Shown here in pieces: positions 4,923 through 30,235 of a stretch of 64,000 nt of DNA. Position 1 is the stretch's first letter; every line of letters starts with the position of its first letter. Source of the stretch: Fodinicola acaciae (GTDB lineage Bacteria > Actinomycetota > Actinomycetes > Mycobacteriales > HKI-0501); NCBI RefSeq assembly GCF_010993745.1, contig NZ_WOTN01000002.1:992001-1056000 (forward strand), written 5' to 3'. Made by a program: the position numbers and the translations under genes. A model generated the notes under the pieces. The model was not told where the DNA came from and searched no databases. It was given only the letters and a program-made list of their open reading frames with translations.

Positions 4923-6279
4923 CGACGAAGTCCTTCGTACGGATCAACCCGAAGGCGGCGACGCCGCTGACGACGGCCACGACGCCGCTGGTCAGCAGAA
5001 GTTCGTTGAGAGCGGTCGGAAAACCGCTGCCGGTGCGCATCGAGGCCGAGAACATCGTGCCGTACAAGGCAATGCCGACCGCGATGCCGAGCTGTCGGAA
5101 GGTCTGGTTGATGCCGGAGGCCATGCCGGAGCGGTGCACCGGCACCACACCGACGGCGGTCGAGCTGAGCGGCGGCGCGACCAGACCGATGCCGACGCCG
5201 GAAATGACGAGTCCTGGCACCAGATGTGTCCAGTCGGAGCGCGCGTCCAGGCCGAGCATCGCCAGCAGGCCGATGCCTTCCAGCACCAGGCCCGGGCCGA
5301 TCAGCCAGCGCACCGGCAGCTGGCTGGACAACCGGCCGGCGACCGTCGCGGCGATGACCGAGCCGGCCGACACGATCAGCAGCCGCAGGCCGGTGCCGAA
5401 CGCGCTGATGCCGAGGCCGCTCTGCAGGTAGAGGACGATGTAGAGAAACATCGCGTTCAACGCGCCGTTCATGGCGAAGGCGGCGACCGAGCCGCCGAGA
5501 AATGTGGGCGTACGCAACAAAGACAGGTCGAACATCGGCTCGCGTACGCGCGACTGGATCACCACGAAGGCGGTCAGGAAGACCGCGGCCAGGCCGAAAC
5601 AGACGATTACGCCGGCCTCGGTCCAGCCGGTGTCGGTGGCGCGGATCAGGCCGTACACGAGGCTGAAAAGGCCTGCGGTGAAGGAAACCACACCAGGCCA
5701 GTCGATCCGCGCGGCGTGCGGCGAACGTGACTCGTCGACCATGAACGCCGCGATGGCGATGGTGAGGGCACCGATCGGCAGGTTGACGAGGAAAATGCCA
5801 CGCCAGCCGATGCCGGTCGCGATCGCGCCGCCGACGAGCGGACCGAGCGCGGTGGCCATGCCGGCCACCGCACCCCACACACCGAAGGCCATGCCGCGTT
5901 CTTTACCCTGGAACGTGCTTGCCAGCAATGCCAACGAAGTCGGAAACACGATCGCCCCGCCGACACCCTGCACCGCACGCGCCGCGATCAGCATCAACGG
6001 ACTGCCGGCGACGCCGCAAATCAACGACGCCAGTGTGAAAATCGCCAGCCCGACAAGGAAAACTCTGCGCCGGCCACACCGGTCGGCGAACGAGCCGGCG
6101 GTCAGCAGCAACGCGGCCAGTGTCAGCGCGTACGCGTCGGTGACCCACTGCAGGTCGCTCAGCTTTGCCGTCAGGCCGTGCTGGATGTCCGGCAGTGCGA
6201 CATTGACGATCGTGACGTCGAGCAGCAACATGAAAGACGCCGCGCAGACGACCGTCAACGTCCACGATTTGCGGCTCAT
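4840..6279 (-). CDS. DHA2-family (EmrB/QacA) MFS drug efflux transporter
   Basis: A 479-residue integral membrane protein with about 14 hydrophobic segments. The first helix contains LDVTIVNVALP, the DHA2 signature, and ADRCGRRRVF follows helix 2-3. It is expected to export toxic compounds by proton antiport. I place the start at the ATG at 6279, which overlaps the VOC gene stop by four bases (ATGA), rather than at an upstream ATG at 6297 inside the VOC gene. It is the last gene of a three-gene minus-strand operon (RHH regulator, VOC protein, pump), an arrangement suggesting sequestration plus export of one compound. Its 3' end overlaps the convergent GH95-like gene. Confidence 0.88.
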   Translation of the reverse strand: MSRKSWTLTVVCAASFMLLLDVTIVNVALPDIQHGLTAKLSDLQWVTDAYALTLAALLLTAGSFADRCGRRRVFLVGLAIFTLASLICGVAGSPLMLIAARAVQGVGGAIVFPTSLALLASTFQGKERGMAFGVWGAVAGMATALGPLVGGAIATGIGWRGIFLVNLPIGALTIAIAAFMVDESRSPHAARIDWPGVVSFTAGLFSLVYGLIRATDTGWTEAGVIVCFGLAAVFLTAFVVIQSRVREPMFDLSLLRTPTFLGGSVAAFAMNGALNAMFLYIVLYLQSGLGISAFGTGLRLLIVSAGSVIAATVAGRLSSQLPVRWLIGPGLVLEGIGLLAMLGLDARSDWTHLVPGLVISGVGIGLVAPPLSSTAVGVVPVHRSGMASGINQTFRQLGIAVGIALYGTMFSASMRTGSGFPTALNELLLTSGVVAVVSGVAAFGLIRTKDFVATAGPTVAPAPTPARHGVADPAARLDG

Positions 6280-6605
6280 TTGGCTTCGATGCTCCACAGC
6301 CGGCCGTCCGGGTCGCGTACGGTCATCCGCTTGGCGCCGTAATGCGTGTCCTCGAACGGCGTCACCACGTCCACGTCCGGCTGGAACGAGCCGGGATCGG
6401 TGACCTTCAGCACGAGCTGCATCTGCGGTTGCTGACTTTCCGGCACCTCGACCAACACCAGGTAGGGCGCGGTGCCGTTCTGCAGCACGCCGGAGCCGTC
6501 GTCGGACGAGAACCGCACCTCATAGCCGAGCTTCTGGAAGAACTTCGCCGACTTTCCCCAGTTGTGCGTCTCCAGGAAAACGCCTTCGATGCCTTCGGTG
6601 GTCAT
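6276..6605 (-). CDS. VOC-superfamily (glyoxalase/bleomycin-resistance fold) protein
   Basis: A 109-residue single-unit VOC protein with paired beta-alpha-beta-beta-beta modules: GVFLETHNWGKSAKFFQKLG at the start, and RMTVRDPDGRLWSIEAK at the end, where the terminal Glu is the usual metal ligand. Members act as metal-dependent enzymes or as drug-binding proteins. The position between an RHH protein (one base upstream) and a DHA2 pump (four-base overlap) favours a role in drug resistance. The start ATG at 6605 is preceded by AAGGAGA within the end of the upstream gene. Confidence 0.8.
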   Translation of the reverse strand: MTTEGIEGVFLETHNWGKSAKFFQKLGYEVRFSSDDGSGVLQNGTAPYLVLVEVPESQQPQMQLVLKVTDPGSFQPDVDVVTPFEDTHYGAKRMTVRDPDGRLWSIEAK

Positions 6606-6606
6606 G

Positions 6607-6780
6607 TCATTTCTCCTTGTTCGAGGTGGTGGCGAGATAGCCGCGAAGAGCGTCGGTGACCAGCGCGGAGAGTGACATCTCCGCCTCGATGGCGTGGTGC
6701 TTGAGCTGCTTGATCAGCTCCACCGGCAGATACACCTTGAACTGCTTCACGTCCTCGGTCACAAGGTCCAATGCTAGCAT
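6607..6780 (-). CDS. Small ribbon-helix-helix (CopG/Arc-type) DNA-binding protein
   Basis: A 57-residue protein starting [20 protein letters not shown] beta strand (VKQFKVYLP, 11-19) is followed by two helices ([15 protein letters not shown] and [14 protein letters not shown]), the compact RHH fold of CopG/Arc repressors and antitoxins. No toxin gene follows. A VOC protein and an efflux pump come next, with only one base between the stop at 6607 and the VOC ATG. It is therefore best read as the autoregulated repressor of this resistance operon. The start codon lies inside a perfect palindrome that could be its own operator. Confidence 0.75.
6771..6780. promoter_or_regulatory. Perfect palindrome ATGCTAGCAT over the RHH start codon
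   Basis: A 10-base perfect palindrome that includes the ATG of the RHH gene. RHH repressors bind short palindromes as dimers of dimers, so this is a candidate autoregulatory operator. If the transcript is leaderless or has a very short leader, binding here would directly block the operon. No experimental support is possible from sequence. Confidence 0.4.
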
Positions 6781-7217
6781 CCTATGTCAGTACCGTAAAC
6801 GGGGCGGCGGGTTTCCGGTCGCGTTGGGACTGATCGAGGCCGGCGCTACGACGGTCGCTCGGCGCCCGTGGGACTCGGCCCGAGGTTGCGGGGAGGTCGT
6901 CGAATTTGTCCAGTGCAGGTGTCAAAAGCGGAAAGTCGTGGTGGAGCGCGCCGGCCAGAATCCGGTCCAGCGGAACGCGCCAGCCATTCACGCTGGTACT
7001 GGGCAGTCAAGCATTACCTGATCACGACCGCCTATGGCATGTCAGGATCGCCGTGTTGTGCGCATGACGATAGGCCGGCCGTGGATGCGCCGCTGGCGTA
7101 CCAGTATTGAGGTCGCCAGGTGTGCAACGGGACTGGCTGGTGGCGGTGGCTACCGAGAACCGACGCGAGGGGTCGCTTTTCGGGTGCGGACAGGCGCAGG
7201 CAAGATGCTGGGTCGGC
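6781..7217. other. Intergenic stretch without a convincing gene
   Basis: About 440 bases between the RHH gene start and the HNH remnant. Short open frames exist on both strands but none has a ribosome-binding site, a domain or convincing codon use. The right part is likely eroded flank of the degenerate mobile and HNH sequence next to it. It must also contain the promoter for the minus-strand RHH-VOC-MFS operon near 6781-6830. Confidence 0.5.
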
Positions 7218-7610
7218 TCAGCATTTCATGCTGTAGCGGGCGTGCCGTATCGGCGTGCGGGTCGGGTCGATGAACGCTGGTGGGATGAAGTACGGGATCC
7301 CTCCGCGCATTTTGATTTTCCATTTGCGAATGGTGCACGATTTGGTGATGTGCGAAGCACAGCAGCACGAGGTTGTGGAGCTTGGTTTCTCCGCCGAAAC
7401 GCACAAAGCGTACGTGGTGGCCTTCGCACCAGTGCGCCTGGCGATCGCACCCCGGGAAGGCGCATCCGACATCGCGCAGGATCAGTGCGCGCCGTAGCGC
7501 GGGGCTGATGGTTCGTGTGCTGGTGCCGATGTCCAGCGGCATGCTGCGTCCGCCGATCACCGCCGGGTCGACCAGGCTGATCGCATCACCCATAGTCGAG
7601 ACGCATGTTC
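7218..7610 (-). pseudogene. Remnant of a DUF222/HNH endonuclease gene, frameshifted
   Basis: The minus strand encodes the C-terminal part of a DUF222-HNH protein. The block PALRRALILRDVGCAFPGCD is followed by HWCEGHHVRF and LVLLCFAHHQIVHH, which is the HNH core. Near 7325-7340 the match leaves this frame and resumes in another as MRGGIPYFIPPAFIDPTRTP, the usual family C-terminus, ending at 7218. The N-terminal DUF222 domain is absent. Truncation plus frameshift make it a dead fragment. Such genes are repetitive in actinobacterial genomes and often sit at recombination scars. Confidence 0.75.
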
Positions 7611-7769
7611 CCATGATATCACCTGCAAACGGTGATTCCAAACCAGGTTTCGGCTCTCTGCGTAAGAAAGTCGGAGCGGTTTTGGTTTTGGCCCACTTTC
7701 CGAGATGGATTCCGGCCCTACAGCCATTCCCTGGAGGAGATCGAAGTTCGCCAGAATCGACCCGCTCTC

Positions 7770-8035
7770 TAGGCGCCACCGGTTGGCCACCTGCACCGCT
7801 GTTGGAGCCCTCGTCCTCGCGCCGCAGCGTACGCGCCGGCGGTCTCTGCAGATCAGTTCGGTCCCAGGGTGTTTGCGCATCCAGTCGGCGAATGTATCCG
7901 CTTCCCGGTCAGGAAGCAGATCGACCGGCATCCCCAGTGTGTCGGTGAGCCGGGCTCTGGCGCAGTAACGGTGTCGACGCAGGTCCGCGCCGGACAATCG
8001 TTGTTGTCACAGAAGACCAGGCACCCCCGGCTCAG
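7770..8035 (-). pseudogene. Degenerate ISL3-family transposase fragment
   Basis: Two pieces of an ISL3 transposase can be read on the minus strand. One is the N-terminal zinc-finger segment, [13 protein letters not shown] (about 8015-7975). The other is the segment before the first catalytic Asp, [21 protein letters not shown], continuing to [13 protein letters not shown] (about 7928-7773). They lie in different frames and the intervening region is deleted. No terminal repeats could be assigned with confidence. Together with the neighbouring HNH remnant this marks an old insertion scar between the efflux operon and the GH31 gene. Confidence 0.65.
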
Positions 8036-8081
8036 GCTGCCTCCAACGTCACTTGCGGGCGGCGGGAGTGGGATTTGGCGG

Positions 8082-11000
8082 TTAGTGGTACGAGACGGTG
8101 GTGTGCGTGCCGAGGTTGACGGTGAGCGTACGTGCGTCGGCGTTCCACTGCCAGGCGGTGGTTGGCCGGCCGTCGACGAGCACCAGTCGTGGAGCGGTCG
8201 CGCCGAGAAAGCGTACGGTCCAGGTCCGCTGCCGCGCTGGCGCGATTGTCAGCCGGTGTGCGGCATCCGCGTACGAGACGGCGGTCGTCGCGCCACCGTC
8301 CTCGGCGAGCGCGTACCTCCCGTTCGCGCCGACGGCCACGTCGAGGGTTGCCGCGGTCAGCGGGTTCTGTACGTCATTGGCCACATTGGTGCTGCGCAAC
8401 GAAAGAATGCCGCCAGCGCGTACGAGCACCGGCATCGTCGACCAGTCCGTCTTGACGTCCACTGTGGACGGTCCGGTGTAGGTCCTGCCGGTGAAATAGT
8501 CGGTCCAGCTGCCTGGCGGGACCCACACCGAGGTCGTCGCGGTCGTCCCCGGATCGGTCGCCGGCGCCACCAACACGTCCGGGCCGTAGAAATACTCGCC
8601 GCCGGCCGCCGCGTAAGCGTCGGGATCGTTGGGATACTGCAGATACGTCGGTCGTACGATCGGCACGCCGGTGCGGTTTGCCAGTCGTGCCAACGAATAG
8701 GTGTACGGCACCAGCCGCTCGCGCAGGTTCATCGACTTCTCCACCGAAACCCGCGCCGCGTCGCCATATTCCCACGGCAGCCGGTTGCTGTGGTTGCCGT
8801 GAAATCTGAAGATCGGCTGGAAGACCGCCAGCTGCGACCAGCGCACGTAGAGGTCGTCCGGCAGGTTTGCCTGGTTGGCGTTGAAACCGCCGATGTCGTG
8901 GCTGGTCGCCGACAGGCCGGTGGACGCCGCCTCGCCAGGTGTGTAGCCGACCTCGAACCGCAGCGTGTCCCAGCTCGACGTGGTGTCGCCGGTGAAGTGT
9001 ACGGTCGTCCGCTTGTCAGCCCATGGTCCGGTCGGCAGGCCCTGCTGGCCACTGTAGCCACCGGCCTGCAACGAGCCGAAGGCACGCGAGAAGGCGAAAC
9101 CGTTGCGGTTGGCGTATTGGTAGTTGATCCAGGCGTCCGGTGTCACGCCGGCGGCGGAATACCGCGACGGCTCGCAACACCAGTCCAGCCACCAGAAGTC
9201 GACGCCCTGCCGCTCCATCCCCTTGTGCAGGTCGAAATACGCCTTGAGCTGGTCGGGATCGGACCAGTCGAAGACATAGCAGTCACCCTGGTGTGAGGTG
9301 TCGGTGTAGCAACCGGAGGCGGCCTTGGTGAGTTTTCCTTTCGCCGTGGCCATCGCCTGGGCAAACTGCGGATCGGTGCTCAGTACGCTCGGATGGATGT
9401 TGATCGTGTTGTGCAGTCCCATCGACGCCGACCAGTCGAAGAATCCGGTCGGATCGGGAAACTTCGTGGTGTCGATCTGCCAGCCGTCCCAGGTGTCCGG
9501 CGACTTGATGTCGGTGTCGGTGACGAGTACGTCCAGCGGCACGCCTTCCGAGCGAAACTTCGCCAGCATCGCTCGATAGTCGCTTTCGTGGTAGTCGTAA
9601 TATTTCGAATACCACACGCCGTAGGCCCAGCGCGGCAACAGGATCGACGGTCCGGTCAGCGTGGCGAGGTCGCTCAGACCATGCTGGAAATCCGTGCCGT
9701 AGCCGAAAAGATAGCCGTCCTGGTATGGCGTGCCGCCGTGACCGGGTCGTGGACTGACCGCCGCGCCGTCGAAGATGGCCGACGCGGTGTCGTCGAGGAG
9801 ATACCAACCGTCCTGGTAGAGCAGGCCGGGCGTGGTACGCGCCGAGCCGTTCACCCCGTCGAGGCCACGCCGATATCCGCCGAGTGGCGCGTGCGGCAGC
9901 AGCTGTGCGGCGCCGGCTGTGGTGACCGCCACGGTGTCGAGGTTGAGGTGGCACGAGTCGGCGTCAGGACAGCCGATCGTGACGGTGTTGTCGCCTTTTC
10001 GCAACGAAACCGGCACGGACACGATCCGCCACGAGTCCCAGCTGCTGGTCGGCGCCAATGTGACGCGCGACTGGTCGACGGAAACAGAGCGCGGCGTCCC
10101 GACATTCGCATAGCGCAGCTGCAGATCGTACGCGCCATCCGCCGGCAGGCCGGTGATCCGCACGGCATCCGAGGCGCCGGCAACCGTCAGGCCAGCCGCG
10201 AAACCGTCACCGGAAAATCCGTTGTGGTCGGTCTGCGCCGACGCGCCACCGGAAAGATTTCCGTTCTCCGCCTCGCAGATCGCGCCGTACGTGCACGACT
10301 TGACCAGTTGCCCAGGAGGATATCCGGCATCTGGCGCGGTCACCGCCAGGCTGTCGAGGTTGACATGGCCGGAGTCCGCGGCGGTTTTGCTGACCGAGAT
10401 CGAATGTTTGCCCGCCGTCAACGACAGGTCGGCGCTGGTGAAACCCCAGGTGTCCCAGCTGCCGGTGACCGGAAGCGTGAGCGTGTGCGCGGTGCCGTCG
10501 ACCGTCAGTGTGAGCGTACGCGTGACGCTCTGGCCATCGCCGCCGACCGCATTGGCATAGCGGGCGCGGAAAACGTACGGGCCGGCGGTCGCGACCTTGA
10601 GCTGGTAGGTCAGCGAGCCGCCGTTCTGCTCGAAGCCGGCGACAAACCCGCTGCCGGTGTAGCCACTGTGGTCGGCAGCGACCGAGACTCCGTCGAGGCT
10701 GGCGTTTTCCGCCTCGCAGAGCGCGCCAGCCGCGCATTCGGCGGCGGCGGGAAAGGTCGGCCGCGCGGTCACGCCGTTGGCCAGCCGCACGGCGACGTTG
10801 TCGGCGGTGAACGGACCGGAATCGAGCTTGTATCGCAACGAAAGCGCGCTCGTACGGATCGTCAGCCAGCCGTCTTTGCGCTCCGTGCTGAAAGCGGGAG
10901 GCCGAAAGCTGGCCCGACCGATCGCGTTGAAGGTCGCCGCGTCGACGAACTTCGCGTCACCGGCGTATTCCATCCGTACGAGCGTCGGCGACAACACCTC

Positions 11001-23039: not shown

Positions 23040-23069
23040 GGCAGGCTTGCCTTGCCTTAGGAGATGGTC

Positions 23070-23906
23070 ATGCTTCCCACGTTCGTGATCGGACTGCGTG
23101 AGGGCCTCGAAGCTTCCCTGATCGTCGGCATCATCGCCGCTTTCCTCGTGCAGAGAGGAAAACGCGACGCGCTGCGGTCGGTGTGGATCGGGGTCGTCAT
23201 CGCCGTGCTGATCTGCCTCGGCATCGGGATCGCGCTGCAGGTGATCACCGCGGAGCTGCCGCAGGCGCAGCAGGAAGGCCTGGAAACCGTCATCGGGCTG
23301 GCCGCTGTGGTCATGGTCACGTACATGATTGTCTGGATGCGCCGGCATTCGCGCGATCTCAAAGGCGAGCTGGAAGGCTCGGCCGGCGCCGCGCTGGCCT
23401 CCGGCTCGGCGTGGGCCCTGATCGCGATGGCCTTCCTGGCCGTGCTGCGCGAAGGCTTCGAGACCTCGGTCTTCCTGCTCGCCGCGTTCCAGGCCAGCTC
23501 CTCGGCCATCCTGCCAGGCATCGGCGCGCTGCTCGGCGTGCTCGTCGCGGTGGCGATCGGCTATGGCATCTATCGCGGTGGCGTACGCCTCAACCTGAGC
23601 CGGTTCTTCCGCGCCACCGGTCTGGTGCTGGTGTTCGTCGCGGCCGGCCTGGTGATGAGCGCGCTGCACACCGCGCACGAGGCTGGCTGGCTCAACGTCG
23701 GCCAGCAGCAGGTGGTCGACCTCACCTGGCTGGTCGGGCCGGGCACCATCCAGGCCTCGCTGATCACCGGCGTGCTCGGCATCCAGCCGCGGCCGGTGGT
23801 GATCGAGGTGATCGGCTGGCTGGTCTACCTGATCCCAGTCGGCATCTACGTCGCGTGGCCAGCCGCCAAGCGCCAGAAGGCCGTCCCAGCAACCACAAAC
23901 GCATAG
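23070..23906 (+). CDS. efeU: EfeU/FTR1-type iron permease
   Basis: A 278-residue integral membrane protein with seven predicted helices. The two FTR1 iron-ligand motifs are present: REGLEA at about residues 9-14 and REGFET at about 126-131. It transports ferric iron after oxidation or haem handling by EfeO and EfeB. I start at the ATG at 23070 because AGGAG (23059-23063) is six bases away; the ATG at 23064 would touch the Shine-Dalgarno. It is the first gene of efeUOB and is preceded by an iron box. Confidence 0.92.
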   Translation: MLPTFVIGLREGLEASLIVGIIAAFLVQRGKRDALRSVWIGVVIAVLICLGIGIALQVITAELPQAQQEGLETVIGLAAVVMVTYMIVWMRRHSRDLKGELEGSAGAALASGSAWALIAMAFLAVLREGFETSVFLLAAFQASSSAILPGIGALLGVLVAVAIGYGIYRGGVRLNLSRFFRATGLVLVFVAAGLVMSALHTAHEAGWLNVGQQQVVDLTWLVGPGTIQASLITGVLGIQPRPVVIEVIGWLVYLIPVGIYVAWPAAKRQKAVPATTNA

Positions 23907-23918
23907 GGAGAACGCACA

Positions 23919-25064
23919 ATGCGCACAGTCCGCTCACCTCTCGCGCTGGCCGCGGTGGCAGTCGCGGGTCTCGCTCTGATCGCGGGCTGCGGAGGATCGC
24001 CGGCGGCGACCGGTGGCGCGTCCTCGAACAAGATCAAGGTGACGCTCACCGACGACGGCTGCACGCCGGACCGTACGACCGTGCCGGCCGGCTCGTACGT
24101 CTTCTCGATCACCAACCAGAGCGCGACCAAGTCGACCGAGGTCGAGCTGCTGGACGGCGAGCGGATCATGGGGGAGAAGGAAAACCTCACCCCGGGACTG
24201 TCCGGCGAGTTCACCCTGGCGCTGACCGCGGGCACCTACAGCCTCTACTGTCCCGGCGCGAAGACCGACACCGTCAAGTTCACCGTCACGGGCGCCGCCG
24301 CCGGGTCGAAAGACCAGGCCACCGCTGCGCTGCTGAAGACGGCCGTGCAGCAGTACGCCGCGTACGTGAAGACCGAGGTCGGTGCGCTGGTGACCTCGAC
24401 GAAACCGTTCGTCGACGCGGTGAAGGCCGGCAACGTGGCGCAGGCCAAGCAGCTCTACGCCGCCGCGCGCGTGCACTACGAGCGCGTGGAGCCGGTCGCG
24501 GAAAGCTTCTCCGGTCTCGACCCGGCGATCGACGCGCGCGAAAACGACGTGCCGGCGGCGCAGTGGACCGGCTTCCACAAGATCGAGCAGGCGTTGTGGG
24601 TCAAGAACTCGACGGCCGGGATGGCGCCGGTGGCCGACAAGCTGCTGGTGGACGTACAGAAGCTCAACACCCAGGTGGCGGCCGCGACCTACCAGCCGGC
24701 GCAGCTGGCCAACGGCGCCGGCGAGCTGCTCAGCGAGGTGTCCAAGAGCAAGATCACCGGCGAGGAGGAGCGCTATTCGCACATCGACCTGGTCGACATC
24801 CGGGCCAACGTCGATGGCGCGAAGCAGGCGTACGCGCCGCTGGTGCCGGCGCTGAAGCGGGTCGACGCGACCCTGGCGAACACGGTCAGCGCCAAGTTCG
24901 CCGCGGTCGACACACTGCTGGACAAATACAAGGACGCCGGCCAGCCGGGCGGCTACAAGCTCTACACGCAGCTGGCGCAGACGGACACCAGGGCCATCGC
25001 GCAGGCGATCGACGCGCTGGCCGAGGCCGAGTCGAAGGTGGCGGGCAAAGTTGTCGGAAAGTAG
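23919..25064 (+). CDS. efeO: EfeO-type iron-binding lipoprotein (cupredoxin plus imelysin-like)
   Basis: A 381-residue exported lipoprotein. The signal peptide ends in the lipobox LIAGC, so Cys24 would be acylated. The N-terminal cupredoxin-like domain (about 30-125) is followed by the helical M75/imelysin-like domain (about 130-381) typical of full-length EfeO. It is thought to bind iron outside the membrane and pass it to EfeU. It starts 12 bases after efeU and overlaps efeB by 14 bases. Confidence 0.9.
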   Translation: MRTVRSPLALAAVAVAGLALIAGCGGSPAATGGASSNKIKVTLTDDGCTPDRTTVPAGSYVFSITNQSATKSTEVELLDGERIMGEKENLTPGLSGEFTLALTAGTYSLYCPGAKTDTVKFTVTGAAAGSKDQATAALLKTAVQQYAAYVKTEVGALVTSTKPFVDAVKAGNVAQAKQLYAAARVHYERVEPVAESFSGLDPAIDARENDVPAAQWTGFHKIEQALWVKNSTAGMAPVADKLLVDVQKLNTQVAAATYQPAQLANGAGELLSEVSKSKITGEEERYSHIDLVDIRANVDGAKQAYAPLVPALKRVDATLANTVSAKFAAVDTLLDKYKDAGQPGGYKLYTQLAQTDTRAIAQAIDALAEAESKVAGKVVGK

Positions 25065-26283
25065 GCGGATCTCGCGGCGCGGACTGCTCGGCGCGGCCAT
25101 CGGCGGCGGCGTCGCCGTCGGCGCTGGTGGTTACGCGCTCGGCCACACGCTGAGCTCCACCGCCGCGGCGGCCTCGACCGGCTCGCCGGCCGTACCGTTC
25201 TACGGTGAGCACCAGGCCGGCATCGCGACCCCGGCGCAGGACCGGCTCGCGTTCGCGGCCTTCGACCTGACCAGTACGAGCCGCGACGACCTGCGTGAGC
25301 TGCTGGTCACGTGGACGCAGGCGGCGGTGAAGATGACCGCCGGCCAGCCGGTCGGGCCGACCGAGACGCTGCCGGACGAGCCGCCGGTCGACACCGGCGA
25401 GGCGATGGGCCTCGCGGCCGGCGGCCTGACGCTCACCATCGGTTTCGGACCGTCGCTGTTCGACAAGCGCTTCGGCCTGGCCGCGAGGAAACCGGCGGCC
25501 CTGCAGCCGCTGCCGCCGCTGCCCGGCGACGAGCTGCGGCCGGAGATCAGCAACGGCGACATCGGCGTACAGGCCTGCGCCGACGACCCGCAGGTGGCCT
25601 TCCACGCCATCCGCAACTTCGCCCGGCTGGCCCGCGGTGTGGCGGTGCTGCGCTGGTCCCAGCTTGGGTTTGGCCGTACGGCCACGACCAGCAGCAGCCA
25701 GGCGACGCCGCGCAACCTGATGGGTTTCAAGGACGGCACCAACAACATCAAGCTGGAGGACGACGCCGACCTGCGCGACTTCGTCTGGGTCGGCGACGAG
25801 ACCGACCAGCCGTGGCTGCGCGGCGGCAGCTACCTGGTGACCCGGCGGATCCGGATGCACATCGAGTCGTGGGACCGCGACCGGCTCGGCGACCAGGAGG
25901 CGGTCTTCGGCCGGGTCAAGACGACCGGCGCGCCGCTCGGCGGCAAGGACGAGTTCGACCCGGTCGACCTCGGCAGCCAGTCGCGGGTCGCCGCCAACGC
26001 GCACATCCGGCTGGCCGCGCCGGCCAGCAACGGCGGCCGGAAGATCCTGCGGCGCGGCTACTCCTACACCGACGGCATCGACGCGCGTACCGGTGAGTTG
26101 GACGCCGGCCTGTTCTTCATCTGCTACCAGCGGGATCCGGCCAAGCAGTTCGTTCCCATCCAGCGCAAACTCGGTGCCAACGACGCGCTGAACGAATACA
26201 TCACGCACACCTCCAGCGCCGTCTTCGCCTGTCCGCCAGGAGCGTCCGCCGGCAAACCGTGGGGTGCCGACCTGTTCCGGTAG
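25051..26283 (+). CDS. efeB: EfeB-type DyP peroxidase, Tat-exported
   Basis: A 410-residue haem peroxidase starting at an unusual TTG at 25051, inside the end of efeO; no ATG or GTG is available in frame upstream of the Tat motif. The Tat signal reads SRRGLLGAAIGGG. The catalytic GFKDGTNN motif (about residue 226) and the proximal haem His in NAHIRLAAP (about 316) are present. As part of EfeUOB it probably oxidises ferrous iron or acts on haem outside the membrane. The weak start and overlap suggest translation is coupled to efeO and set low. Confidence 0.92.
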   Translation: MSESRRISRRGLLGAAIGGGVAVGAGGYALGHTLSSTAAAASTGSPAVPFYGEHQAGIATPAQDRLAFAAFDLTSTSRDDLRELLVTWTQAAVKMTAGQPVGPTETLPDEPPVDTGEAMGLAAGGLTLTIGFGPSLFDKRFGLAARKPAALQPLPPLPGDELRPEISNGDIGVQACADDPQVAFHAIRNFARLARGVAVLRWSQLGFGRTATTSSSQATPRNLMGFKDGTNNIKLEDDADLRDFVWVGDETDQPWLRGGSYLVTRRIRMHIESWDRDRLGDQEAVFGRVKTTGAPLGGKDEFDPVDLGSQSRVAANAHIRLAAPASNGGRKILRRGYSYTDGIDARTGELDAGLFFICYQRDPAKQFVPIQRKLGANDALNEYITHTSSAVFACPPGASAGKPWGADLFR

Positions 26284-26286
26284 GCC

Positions 26287-26298
26287 TTTAGCGCTAAA
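26287..26298. promoter_or_regulatory. Palindrome TTTAGCGCTAAA upstream of the small Cys-rich gene
   Basis: A perfect 12-base palindrome that begins four bases after the efeB stop. The AT-rich stretch just downstream (26296-26316) is where a promoter for the peptide cassette would be expected. It is a candidate operator. Confidence 0.4.
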
Positions 26299-26395
26299 TA
26301 TGTTATTGGTACTCACGAGTCGGGAAATTTTCCGCCGCTGCCGGCTCGCGTATTGCGCCGCCAACCGGCGGCGGCTACATTCCGCGCTGTCTCCA

Positions 26396-26425
26396 CCCGG
26401 GTACGCCGCCGGCAGCGTACCCGGG
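26396..26425 (+). promoter_or_regulatory. Strong hairpin in the leader of the Cys-rich peptide gene
   Basis: Perfect 11-base arms (26396-26406 and 26415-26425) with an 8-base loop, 35 bases before the start codon at 26461. There is no T-run, so it is more likely a leader structure that stabilises the mRNA or controls translation. A smaller GC-rich dyad lies just upstream, at about 26357-26374. Confidence 0.55.
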
Positions 26426-26460
26426 CTCATCACGGCATCCTGACGAAGAGAGCTGATGGC

Positions 26461-26682
26461 ATGGTGGCAACGATCAGGGACAGAATCGAGCGGCTGAGCG
26501 ACCGGATGCTCGGCCGTCTCGTTCCGAAGATGACCGCGGACGCGGTGGTGTGTACGTGGGCGAAGTGCGGCTGTGGCTACGGATTTCCGCCGACGATGTA
26601 TCTCCGGCAGGCCTACCAGCTGCGCGACGAGCTCCACGACACCGCCTGCGGTGACTGCGCGCTGAGCAACGACCGCTGCTGA
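26461..26682 (+). CDS. Small six-cysteine protein, candidate precursor peptide
   Basis: A 73-residue protein. The N-terminal 25 residues are charged and helical (MVATIRDRIERLSDRMLG, then RLVPKMTADA). The C-terminal part is Cys-rich, with Cys31, Cys36, Cys38, Cys63, Cys66 and Cys73, the last being the final residue, plus CGCGYGFPPTMY in the middle. This leader-plus-core layout resembles a ribosomal peptide precursor, and six Cys could give three disulfides. A strong hairpin separates it from genes for a membrane thioredoxin-like protein, an ABC exporter and an S26 peptidase. I do not recognise a named family. No lanthipeptide, sactipeptide or lasso enzyme is nearby. GAAGAGAG upstream supports the start. 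Confidence 0.65.
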   Translation: MVATIRDRIERLSDRMLGRLVPKMTADAVVCTWAKCGCGYGFPPTMYLRQAYQLRDELHDTACGDCALSNDRC

Positions 26683-26697
26683 CCGAGGTCCGACGAT

Positions 26698-26733
26698 CGC
26701 GGTGGTGCCGATTCTTCGGCATCACCGCGGCTT
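26698..26733 (+). terminator. Terminator or attenuator hairpin after the Cys-rich gene
   Basis: A 14-base stem (26698-26711 with 26716-26729) broken only by one G-T pair, a TTCT loop, then GCTTTT. It lies 15 bases after the stop codon. A leaky terminator here would yield much more peptide mRNA than mRNA for the downstream genes, as is common for peptide precursors. Confidence 0.75.
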
Positions 26734-26766
26734 TTCCGGTGTCCCTTTCTCGACGAGGCGGAACTG

Positions 26767-27285
26767 ATGGCCGTATTGATCGCGATCGTGGTCCTGGTCG
26801 GTGCGCTGTGCCTGCTCGACCTTGTCCTGACTTTTGGTGTGGTGCGGCGGTTACGTGAGCACGCCGAGACCCTCGAGCGGCTCCTGGAACGGCGTAGCAG
26901 CGCGAATGTCCCGGCGGCGGGCCGGTCGGTCGGTCAGCTCACCGCCGCCACGGTCGACGGCGAGCGGCTGTCGTTCGTCGGCGCCACGGCCGTGGTTTTC
27001 GTGTCCCCGGAATGCGAAAGCTGTCGTACGGACCTGCCTGACCTGGTGGCGTGGGCCGGCGACCGCGACCGTGAGCGCGTACTCGTCGTGGTCGACACGA
27101 CCTATTCCGACGGCGCTGATTTCGTGGCGGCGTTGGAAAAAGTCGCGCAGGTCGTGCTCGACGGAGCTGACTCGGGAATTCGCGAGACCTTCGGAGTGGA
27201 GGGCTATCCGATGTCCTGCGTCGTCGTGGACGGCGTGGTCACCGAGTTCGTGCCGCGCTTCTCCCGACTGCCGGCATTGGTGTGA
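26767..27285 (+). CDS. Membrane-anchored thioredoxin-like (TlpA-type) protein
   Basis: A 172-residue protein with one N-terminal membrane helix (MAVLIAIVVLVGALCLLDLVL), a short coiled coil (residues 27-46) and a thioredoxin-like domain. The redox motif CESC (about residues 83-86) follows the strand TAVVFVSPE, and a cis-Pro candidate is in GVEGYPMSCVVV. It would act outside the membrane as a dithiol oxidase or reductase. It follows the Cys-rich small protein and overlaps the ABC transporter gene by four bases (GTGA), so forming or shuffling that peptide's disulfides is the natural guess. Confidence 0.75.
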   Translation: MAVLIAIVVLVGALCLLDLVLTFGVVRRLREHAETLERLLERRSSANVPAAGRSVGQLTAATVDGERLSFVGATAVVFVSPECESCRTDLPDLVAWAGDRDRERVLVVVDTTYSDGADFVAALEKVAQVVLDGADSGIRETFGVEGYPMSCVVVDGVVTEFVPRFSRLPALV

Positions 27286-29075
27286 CCGCCGCGTTCCGGC
27301 TGACCGGCCTGGTCTGGCGGTCGGCTCCATGGCATGCCGTCGCGTACCTGCTGGTGACCCTGCTCGGCGGCCTCACGCCGGTGTTCGTGGCGTGGCTGAC
27401 GAAGCTGGCACTGGACCGGTTGGTGAGGCCAGGTCCGGTCGGTGTGCTGCTCGCGCTGGCAACCGGCATCGCGGTCTGGGGACTGGCCGGCGCGCTCAAC
27501 CCGCAGATCGCCGACTATCTGCGCGCCGAGCTCGACCGCCGCGCGAGCCTGCGTGCCAAGGACACGCTTTTCGCTGCCGTGGAACGGCTTTCCGGCCTGT
27601 CGAGGTTGGAGGATCCGGAGTTCCTGGACCGGCTGCGGCTGGCCGAGCAGAGCGTGATTAACCCGGGTCAGCTGATCGACTCGACGCTCCAGCTCGGCCG
27701 CGGCGGCATCACCCTGATCGGATTTGTCGGCTCGCTCGCGATCGTCAGTCCGTGGTTCACCGCCGTCGTGCTGGCCGCGGCCGCACCGGCTCTGCTCGTC
27801 GAGCTGCGGTTGGCCAGGCAGCGTACGGACATGATGCTCGCCCTTACCCCAATCCAGCGCCGCGAGCTGTTCTACGCGACGCTGCTCGGTGCGGCGCCGG
27901 CGGCGAAGGAAATCCGGCTCTTCGGCATCGGCGCGTTCCTGCGCGAGCGCATGATCGCCGAAGTGCGGCGCGGCAACGCCACTCGTCACCAGATGGACCG
28001 CAGGGAACTGGTGCGCCACGGCGCACTGATCGCGCTCGCCAGCACGATCGCCGGTGGCGGTCTGCTGTGGGCCTTGTTGTCGGCCGGCCGCGGCGAGCTC
28101 ACCGTCGGCGACGTTTCGTTGTTCGTCGCGGCAACCGCCGCCGTGCAGGGGGCCGTGACCGCGATGGTGAGCGCGGCCGCGCGTACGAGACAACAGGCGT
28201 TGCTTTTCCAGCATTTCGACGCTGTCGTGTCGGCCGGACCGGACCTGCCGGTGTCGTCGCGCCCGTGCGAGATTTCCGAGCTGCGCAACGGAATCGAGCT
28301 GCGGGATGTCTGGTTTCGTTACTCCGACTCGCATCCCTGGGTCCTGCGCGGTGTGAACCTTTTCCTGCCGCACCGGTCGACGGTCGCGCTGGTCGGTCTC
28401 AACGGTGGCGGCAAAAGTACGATCGTGAAGCTGCTGTGCCGGTTCTACGATCCGACGCGCGGTCAGATCCGCTGGGACGGCGTCGATGTCCGCGACCTTC
28501 CGGTCACCGAGCTGCGCGGCCGGATGGGGGCCGTTTTCCAGGACTTCATGGCATACGACCTCAGCGCGACCGACAACATCGCGGTCGGTGACCTGTCCGC
28601 GATCGCCGACCCGAGCCGGATCGAACTCGCGGCTCGACGCGCCGGCGTACACGACGCGATCCAGGCTTTGCCGCGCGGCTATGACACGTTGTTGACCAGG
28701 GCCTTCTTCAGCGCATCCGGCGACGGCAAGGAGACCGGCGTGATGCTGTCCGGCGGTCAATGGCAACGTGTCGCGCTGGCCAGGGCGTTTCTGCGTGAGG
28801 ATCGCGACCTGGTGATCCTGGACGAGCCGAGCGCGGGCCTGGACGCCGAAGCCGAGCACGAGGTGCACTCGCGGCTGCGCGAGATCCGGTCGGGACGTAC
28901 CAGCCTGCTGATCTCGCACCGGCTCGGCACGATCCGCGACGCCGACCTCATCGCCGTACTCGCCGACGGCGTCATCGCCGAGCAGGGCACGCACGCCGAG
29001 CTGCTGGCGGCGGGCGGCGCGTACGCGCGGCTGTTCAACCTGCAGGCCGAAGGGTATGCGGCGGCGACCGCGTGA
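27282..29075 (+). CDS. ABC exporter, fused permease and ATPase
   Basis: A 597-residue half-transporter. The N-terminal membrane domain (about 1-310) has six helices and no C39 peptidase domain. The ATPase domain has Walker A GLNGGGKST (about 372-380), Q-loop FQDF, signature LSGGQWQRVALARA (about 489-502) and Walker B LVILDEPSAG. It probably works as a homodimer and exports a peptide. It starts with a GTG overlapping the thioredoxin-like gene and ends overlapping the S26 peptidase gene, also by GTGA. Lacking its own protease, it would need the S26 enzyme to process its cargo. Confidence 0.88.
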   Translation: MTAAFRLTGLVWRSAPWHAVAYLLVTLLGGLTPVFVAWLTKLALDRLVRPGPVGVLLALATGIAVWGLAGALNPQIADYLRAELDRRASLRAKDTLFAAVERLSGLSRLEDPEFLDRLRLAEQSVINPGQLIDSTLQLGRGGITLIGFVGSLAIVSPWFTAVVLAAAAPALLVELRLARQRTDMMLALTPIQRRELFYATLLGAAPAAKEIRLFGIGAFLRERMIAEVRRGNATRHQMDRRELVRHGALIALASTIAGGGLLWALLSAGRGELTVGDVSLFVAATAAVQGAVTAMVSAAARTRQQALLFQHFDAVVSAGPDLPVSSRPCEISELRNGIELRDVWFRYSDSHPWVLRGVNLFLPHRSTVALVGLNGGGKSTIVKLLCRFYDPTRGQIRWDGVDVRDLPVTELRGRMGAVFQDFMAYDLSATDNIAVGDLSAIADPSRIELAARRAGVHDAIQALPRGYDTLLTRAFFSASGDGKETGVMLSGGQWQRVALARAFLREDRDLVILDEPSAGLDAEAEHEVHSRLREIRSGRTSLLISHRLGTIRDADLIAVLADGVIAEQGTHAELLAAGGAYARLFNLQAEGYAAATA

Positions 29076-29470
29076 TCGCCGTCGTCGCGTTGCTGGCGTT
29101 GGCGGTCGGCGGAGTTTTCTGGCTGCGCGCACGATATGCGATGATCACCGTACGCGGCCAGAGCATGAGTCCCGCGTACGCGCACGGCGACCGCCTGCTC
29201 GTAGTGCGCCGTAAGCGCTGCGGCGTCGGCCAGTGCGTGGTGTTCGCCGACCGGCGGCGTGAGGGCCGTAACGGCTGGATCCTGAAGCGCGTCGCCGCGG
29301 CGCCAGGTGATCCCGTGCCCGCGCAGGTCCGCGCGGCCGTACGCGACGAGCGGGTGCCAGCCGGACAGCTGGTCGTACTCGGCGACAACGCGGCTCACTC
29401 CACCGACTCGCGGCAGTTTGGCTATGTGGCGGTCAGCCGCGTACTCGGAGTCGTGCTGCGGCGGCTGTGA
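29072..29470 (+). CDS. S26-family signal-peptidase-like serine protease
   Basis: A 132-residue membrane protease. One N-terminal helix (IAVVALLALAVGGVFWL) is followed by box B with the catalytic Ser in VRGQSMSPAY (about residue 30) and the general-base Lys in ILKRVAAAPGD (about 70), then the GDN-containing box E (VLGDNAAHSTDSR). It is shorter than type I signal peptidases and resembles the SodX-like/small S26 group that processes dedicated substrates. It is the last gene of the cassette and is coupled to the exporter, so the likely substrate is the Cys-rich small protein. Confidence 0.8.
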   Translation: MIAVVALLALAVGGVFWLRARYAMITVRGQSMSPAYAHGDRLLVVRRKRCGVGQCVVFADRRREGRNGWILKRVAAAPGDPVPAQVRAAVRDERVPAGQLVVLGDNAAHSTDSRQFGYVAVSRVLGVVLRRL

Positions 29471-29509: not shown

Positions 29510-30235
29510 ATGCCGGACAACCAGGTCCCGTCGGTGTGGATGCGACCGGAGAAGTCCGGCCGCGGCCCGCATCCGGGGCTGAGCCGGGCGGAGATCACCG
29601 CGGCCGCGATCCGGCTCGCCGACGCCGAAGGTCTGGAGGCGGTCTCGATGCGCCGCGTGGCGGCCGAGCTCGGCTCCGGCACGATGTCGCTCTATCGGTA
29701 CGTACGCCGGCGGGACGAGCTCGTCGAGCTGATGTACGACGAGGTGCTCGGCGAGCACGAGCTGCCGGCCGAGCCGTCCGGCGACTGGCGCGCCGACCTG
29801 CGGCGGCTCGCTGTGCAGAGCCGGCTGGTCATGCTGCGTCACCAGTGGATGGCCGCCCTGTTCATCGCCCGGCCGTCGATCGGGCCGCGGTCGCTGCGGC
29901 TGATGAACTTCGAGTTGTCCACTATGGATAGCCTTGGCCTCGATATCGACAGGGTGATGGGTTTCGCCGGCATGGTCAGCGCCTTCACGCGCGGGTTCGT
30001 GCAGGCCGAGCTCGCGGAGTCCGAGGCGGTACGCCGGACGGGGCTGACGGAGGACGAATGGCGGACGGCGACGGCGCCGTACATCGGACAGGTGATCACC
30101 CCCGACCGCTATCCGGCCCTCTATCGCTTCATGGTGGAGGCCGACGACAACCCGGATCTGGACCAGGCTTTCGAGGCCGGTGTCGACATCGTGCTGGACG
30201 GGATCGAGCTGGCCATCCAACGTCACTCTCGGTAG
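29510..30235 (+). CDS. TetR/AcrR-family transcriptional regulator
   Basis: A 241-residue repressor. The helix-turn-helix lies at about residues 28-70 (ITAAAIRLADAEGLEAVSM, then MSLYRYVRRRDELVELM) and is followed by an all-helical ligand-binding domain of the TetR_C type. AGAGGAGG sits upstream of the ATG. The nearest downstream gene is a membrane GAF-domain protein, 61 bases away on the same strand, with a GTAC dyad between them. The ligand is unknown. The gene starts 39 bases after the peptide cassette, so control of that cassette is also conceivable. Confidence 0.9.
   Translation: MPDNQVPSVWMRPEKSGRGPHPGLSRAEITAAAIRLADAEGLEAVSMRRVAAELGSGTMSLYRYVRRRDELVELMYDEVLGEHELPAEPSGDWRADLRRLAVQSRLVMLRHQWMAALFIARPSIGPRSLRLMNFELSTMDSLGLDIDRVMGFAGMVSAFTRGFVQAELAESEAVRRTGLTEDEWRTATAPYIGQVITPDRYPALYRFMVEADDNPDLDQAFEAGVDIVLDGIELAIQRHSR

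Follow-up and report, generated by a model that had tools for sequence, protein, structure and literature searches.

Comparing the gene cluster at 26461–29470 of a 64,000-nucleotide stretch of Fodinicola acaciae DNA (the window) with related loci, we determined that its 73-residue, six-cysteine reading frame is, judging by the alignments, a real precursor, in which a leader and a core are joined by VP-x3-A-x-A. With a probability of roughly 80%, we consider its product to be a leader-guided peptide that is exported by an ATP-binding cassette (ABC) transporter, cleaved after A-x-A by a signal peptidase-like enzyme of its own, and oxidised outside the membrane. From the sequence comparison, we establish (i) a leader family; (ii) its A-x-A junction; (iii) the linkage of precursors to the same machinery genes; (iv) the intact catalytic residues of that machinery; and (v) mostly even cysteine counts in cores under selection. 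Export by this transporter, cleavage by this protease, oxidation by this thioredoxin-like protein, and the order of these steps are what we infer from that pattern.

All features of the cluster lie on the forward strand. The precursor gene (26461–26682; ATG at 26461, stop codon at 26680–26682) has a homologue in a genome of the same genus (G001). Its leader, residues 1–28 (MVATIRDRIERLSDRMLGRLVPKMTADA; 26461–26544), is predicted to be helical and ends in VP-x3-ADA, and 44 other precursors have this leader and junction in common; all six cysteines sit after residue 28, within the predicted 45-residue mature core (VVCTWAKC...NDRC; 26545–26679), the start of which was placed by the conserved A-x-A junction. 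A perfect hairpin followed by CTTTT (26697–26730) separates the precursor gene from those of a membrane-anchored, TlpA/ResA-type thioredoxin-like protein with CESC at residues 83–86 (26767–27285), an ABC exporter with fused transmembrane and ATPase domains and without a C39 peptidase (27282–29075), and a small S26 signal peptidase-like protease (29072–29470; Pfam Peptidase_S26, E 8e-20). The original prediction, made from the sequence of the window alone, had described this same layout. It had also described three GTGA overlaps; these are present between the thioredoxin-like and ABC genes (27282–27285) and between the ABC and S26 genes (29072–29075), but the junctions of this kind number two rather than three. 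GTGA is also found at the end of the S26 gene, where the frame that opens (29467) is an implausible gene, and a TetR regulator gene comes next, at 29510.

In its own genome (G000, actinobacterial, 8.86 Mb), the window transporter has three close paralogues at 45–52% identity, the next best match being near 32%. Each paralogue is adjoined by a thioredoxin-like gene, an S26 gene, and one or more small cysteine-rich frames (L018, L019 and L020). With these three, the loci of this genome that carry thioredoxin-like and S26 genes number four besides that of the window; the remaining one, the fifth locus in this genome (L067), has MauE, thioredoxin-like and S26 genes and a frame with a variant leader and four cysteines. 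The frames at L018 (...ADGVLARFVPKIDAAAGC... and ...ADRLLATFVPSVDAAAGC...), L019 (...GDQLLQRFVPKAEAKAGAYYAC...) and L020 (...TDRLLGLFVPATTAGACAC... and two frames with ...VVxWLVPxTTAAAC...) correspond to ...SDRMLGRLVPKMTADAVVC... in the window peptide. These six precursors share the window leader and junction, while their cores are unrelated, save for a likeness between the last two L020 cores. Searched against the whole genome at E <= 0.01, a leader profile matched solely at the window (E 9e-11), L018, L019, and L020.

Loci in other actinobacteria were collected by homology to the thioredoxin-like protein and the transporter, blind to small genes. An ABC scan of genome contigs contributed L093–L097; its matches outside these loci are other ABC proteins and were used as controls, which comprised 75 loci around unrelated ABC genes. 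A strict leader motif, built solely from precursors of the window genome, was found at 22 of 44 loci outside that genome, at none of the 75 controls, and 0.05 times per shuffled set; although cysteine was not required, no match had fewer than five. The leader profile A2, which was partly trained on the tested loci, reached our threshold of 15 bits at 45 of the 50 loci selected by thioredoxin-like protein and transporter, as compared with 0 of 75 controls (best score, 11.2). Three of the five loci below the threshold hold a cysteine-rich open reading frame with a variant leader. A small cysteine-rich gene beside homologous transporters is what the original prediction had proposed to look for, and what most of these loci contain.

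The association also holds in the reverse direction. When a leader-only profile of 27 positions was applied to another family, sampled by 101 genomes, 32 of these gave matches. The surroundings of 40 matched places, taken from genomes outside the training set, included thioredoxin-like genes at 34, S26 genes at 34, ABC genes at 30, and MauE genes at 26 (an identity backed by Pfam for two proteins), whereas the control places had no thioredoxin-like, S26, or MauE gene. Across the phylum, in a sample of 296 genomes with fewer candidates scored per genome, the profile matched in the window's own genome only, which does no more than suggest that the leader family is rare outside the families where it was found.

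Most leaders in an alignment of 45 precursors have 24 residues, and the leader contains D-R-L-L-x-R-L-V-P, followed by three residues and then A-x-A. Alanine occupies position −1 in all 45 and position −3 in 42; as the search motif allowed glycine or serine at the junction, this conservation is partly, though not wholly, built in. The number of cysteines per core is six in 30 precursors, eight in 11, ten in one, seven in two, and four in one, and their spacing differs completely from core to core. With pN/pS (the ratio of nonsynonymous to synonymous change) at 0.33–0.85 across pairs of related precursors, the cores are under purifying selection. No Pfam or NCBIfam model matched any of the 11 precursors tested, a PDB sequence search with precursors revealed no family, and a genome-wide scan using the window peptide alone gave no match; because the cores are too variable for such a scan, leader and machinery are needed as queries. 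Weak matches of the window peptide in G019 and G042 were dismissed as chance, no machinery adjoining either; a weak match was also seen in G111. AlphaFold, given the precursor alone, returned only the leader helix (predicted local distance difference test, pLDDT, about 67–78 over residues 1–20), the core being unreliable.

Some family members depart from this pattern. At L067 (7905–8141) and L083 (4085–4246), the leader is a variant that lacks the VP motif (..MAPKAEAAA.. and ..LLGRKATAHA.., respectively) and is followed by just four cysteines, with thioredoxin-like, MauE and S26 genes as neighbours at L067 and MauE, ABC and S26 genes at L083; this variant may represent a second subfamily. The precursor core at L225 (5996–7120) extends into a long repetitive tail of QAAGKQ-like repeats, followed by a further open frame, and is possibly a decayed or fused copy.

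The machinery proteins retain the residues that their proposed roles would require. The thioredoxin-like protein has an N-terminal hydrophobic helix, and its AlphaFold model (pLDDT 85) was matched by Foldseek to StoA, CcmG, ResA, DsbF, and SdbA, of the TlpA class (E about 1e-5 to 1e-4); with a thioredoxin fold, a CxxC motif, and an N-terminal anchor, it has the features of the TlpA/ResA type. Pfam AhpC-TSA/Redoxin was above cut-off in its relatives, not in the window protein itself, and CxxC is invariant in all 44 relatives. Equally, the catalytic serine and lysine of the S26 protein (Ser31 and Lys72 in the window) are invariant in 45 of 45 relatives; this dyad and an N-terminal hydrophobic segment are those of a type I signal peptidase, and its relatives in PDB are enzymes of this type. 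For the 597-residue transporter, ABC_tran alone was above cut-off, and no C39 domain was among the Pfam matches.

Clustering the likely genes of about 85 loci yielded only five recurrent families: ABC, thioredoxin-like, MauE, S26, and a BTAD (SARP/AfsR-type) regulator. The regulator was present at 44 of 90 loci (e.g., L086, 3398–5581; L251, 4799–5623) and at none of 35 GC-rich controls; it is not beside the window locus, and its enrichment at related loci is a feature also of antibiotic gene clusters. No modifying enzyme was recurrent in the clustered loci. Consistent with the original prediction, we found no lanthipeptide, sactipeptide, or lasso synthetase or cyclase among the genes directly flanking the window locus, nor any recurrent in the clustered set.

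The 15-bp stem of the window hairpin is without mismatch, and hairpins of at least 10 bp lie 3' of 23 of the 45 precursors, compared with 5% of shuffles. At the homologous position in G001, the alignment also shows a long inverted repeat, though its sequence differs. We propose that the hairpin either acts as a partial terminator or forms the 3' end of a precursor mRNA present in abundance.

In the mechanism that we envisage, the precursor, with the hairpin after its gene, would be made in excess of the machinery, and its amphipathic helical, non-Sec leader would bring it to its dedicated ABC exporter, which lacks a peptidase. On the outer surface of the membrane, the leader would be cut off after VP-x3-A-x-A by the small S26 protease, a role suggested by the match between the A-x-A junction and an S26 protease. 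The anchored thioredoxin-like protein would make or shuffle the three disulfides of the core; for its re-oxidation it would depend on MauE or, at loci such as the window's that have no MauE nearby, on another oxidant. The product would be a compact peptide with disulfide bonds and a length of about 45 residues. The original prediction had read the layout as making, oxidising, exporting, and trimming a peptide, and the conserved A-x-A junction, the intact Ser/Lys dyad, and the invariant CxxC support that reading.

Several points weigh against it. No MauE gene lies near the window locus; two precursors at L018 have seven cysteines; and leader-bearing, cysteine-rich precursors at L221, L249, and L250 have no machinery nearby. 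These stand-alone precursors may use machinery encoded elsewhere; two of them are in genome G538, which has nine leader matches. TlpA-type proteins are often reductases, so that the thioredoxin-like protein might oxidise, reduce, or isomerise thiols. No conserved immunity gene was found among about 85 loci, which weakens a bacteriocin reading, and every step of the mechanism draws on sequence comparison rather than biochemistry.

The Sec pathway uses precisely an A-x-A junction and an S26 enzyme, and the leader might be an odd signal peptide, the S26 protein a spare signal peptidase, and the cargo of the transporter something else. However, no hydrophobic h-region precedes the A-x-A site: the maximum 11-residue hydropathy averages 0.88 over the 45 leaders and is 0.57 for the window leader, compared with 2.65 for the EfeO lipoprotein signal of the same window. 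Sec export is therefore unlikely, and the presence of an ABC gene at 30 of the 40 leader-only places speaks further against such a division of roles. Slightly less probable still is that the core is further modified (by thioether, glycosyl, or other chemistry) by enzymes encoded elsewhere, disulfides not being its main chemistry. While the unlinked precursors do point to parts working in trans, no modifying-enzyme family recurs in the clustered loci, and cysteine parity and the linkage to thioredoxin-like and MauE genes favour disulfides.

Alternatively, the cysteines might bind metal, in a small zinc or iron peptide or a metallochaperone that the thioredoxin-like protein keeps reduced, as TlpA-type proteins can do, and as an iron uptake operon adjoining upstream might suggest. 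We regard this as very unlikely, since iron uptake genes are not recurrent at other loci, cysteine spacing is wholly different between cores, and the cysteines accompany an export-type leader, an A-x-A junction, MauE, and S26. Finally, the 73-residue frame is short, and a search for a promoter-like site found none, so that it might be untranslated and its neighbours serve something else, an outcome that the original prediction had itself seen as fatal. Leader conservation, purifying selection on the frame, and recurrent linkage refute this as far as sequence can, and leave it a negligible chance.

The iron uptake operon (23064–26283 of the window) is of the EfeUOB type, encoding an FTR1-like permease, an EfeO cupredoxin/imelysin protein, and a DyP-type EfeB, and seems to have no connection with the peptide system. 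In G001, the homologous locus (L017; about 8404–8619 and 5930–8240) has frameshifts in the precursor, thioredoxin-like, and ABC genes within well conserved sequence, attributable either to a draft assembly (74% complete) that is prone to errors or to recent decay.

Related clusters had probably been noted before. The available excerpts of the decRiPPter report (PLoS Biol 2020, PMC7794033) describe three candidate families in Streptomyces, all with MauE and one with MauD as well, which include peptidase, transporter, and regulator genes and a precursor of at least eight cysteines; a role in modifying precursors was proposed, and the families were left uncharacterised. They resemble the present system in being actinobacterial and having MauE and a cysteine-rich precursor, and, compared by description only, are probably related to it. 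They differ in being limited to Streptomyces, and those excerpts describe no common leader, A-x-A junction, or S26 logic (PMC7794033). In the present system, MauE occurs at 26 of 40 loci but not beside the window locus, and the window core and many other precursors have six cysteines. The system is thus not as undescribed as originally predicted, MauE-containing, cysteine-rich Streptomyces clusters having been flagged (PMC7794033). Its leader family, its S26/A-x-A logic, and its breadth, however, seem undescribed within the open-licence literature.

Sublancin and other glycocins likewise combine an exported disulfide peptide with dedicated thioredoxin-like proteins and an ABC exporter, but their double-glycine leader is cut by the C39 domain of the transporter, and they are glycosylated. 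The hallmarks of double-glycine or class II bacteriocins are absent here: there is no C39 domain and no GG/GA site, the junction in the 45 precursors being x3-A-x-A after VP or close variants. Cinnamycin-type lanthipeptides such as coerumycin have leaders that end in AFA or AYA and are thought to be cut by type I signal peptidase (PMC12837462); that is the general signal peptidase, acting alongside lanthionine synthesis, whereas the present operon has a dedicated S26 gene and lanthionine enzymes are not recurrent. Actifensins and actinomycesin, also actinobacterial, share with the present system a leader and core, disulfides (three), multiple copies, nearby ABC transporters, and very diverse cores (PMC6989792, PMC8819291). 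However, the actifensin operon has a subtilisin-like protease, an alpha/beta hydrolase, and a LuxR regulator, with a GA/G-x-E cleavage motif (PMC6989792, PMC8819291), and actifensins have one defensin fold and a fixed cysteine pattern, whereas patterns vary among the cores described here. The window spacing does not match the actifensin C-X5-12-C-X3-C-X9-10-C-X4-5-C-X-C (PMC6989792), and no afn-type gene set (afnB-I) was found at the window locus. Actifensin and cinnamycin-like peptides share only single features with the present system.

The most likely use of the peptide, with perhaps an even chance, is antagonism of competitors, as a bacteriocin or defensin-like product; a signal or surface peptide is possible. 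We lean towards regarding these peptides as a separate class of secreted disulfide-rich products across several actinobacterial families, with one leader, hypervariable cores, an ABC exporter, a dedicated type I signal peptidase, A-x-A cleavage uncoupled from Sec, and disulfide machinery of their own. If the proposed mechanism is correct, precursor genes for which no Pfam or NCBIfam model exists would be recognisable by a single 27-position leader profile, as was the case for 32 of the 101 genomes sampled from one family, and their cores, with their many cysteine patterns, would amount to a natural library of miniproteins bonded by disulfides. The system would also allow two processes to be studied: the processing of ABC exporter cargo by a dedicated signal peptidase and the extracellular folding of multi-disulfide peptides by bacteria. 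The same arrangement recurs in many soil actinobacteria, and, should these peptides indeed be a separate class, it would constitute a natural platform for diverse disulfide-locked miniproteins.
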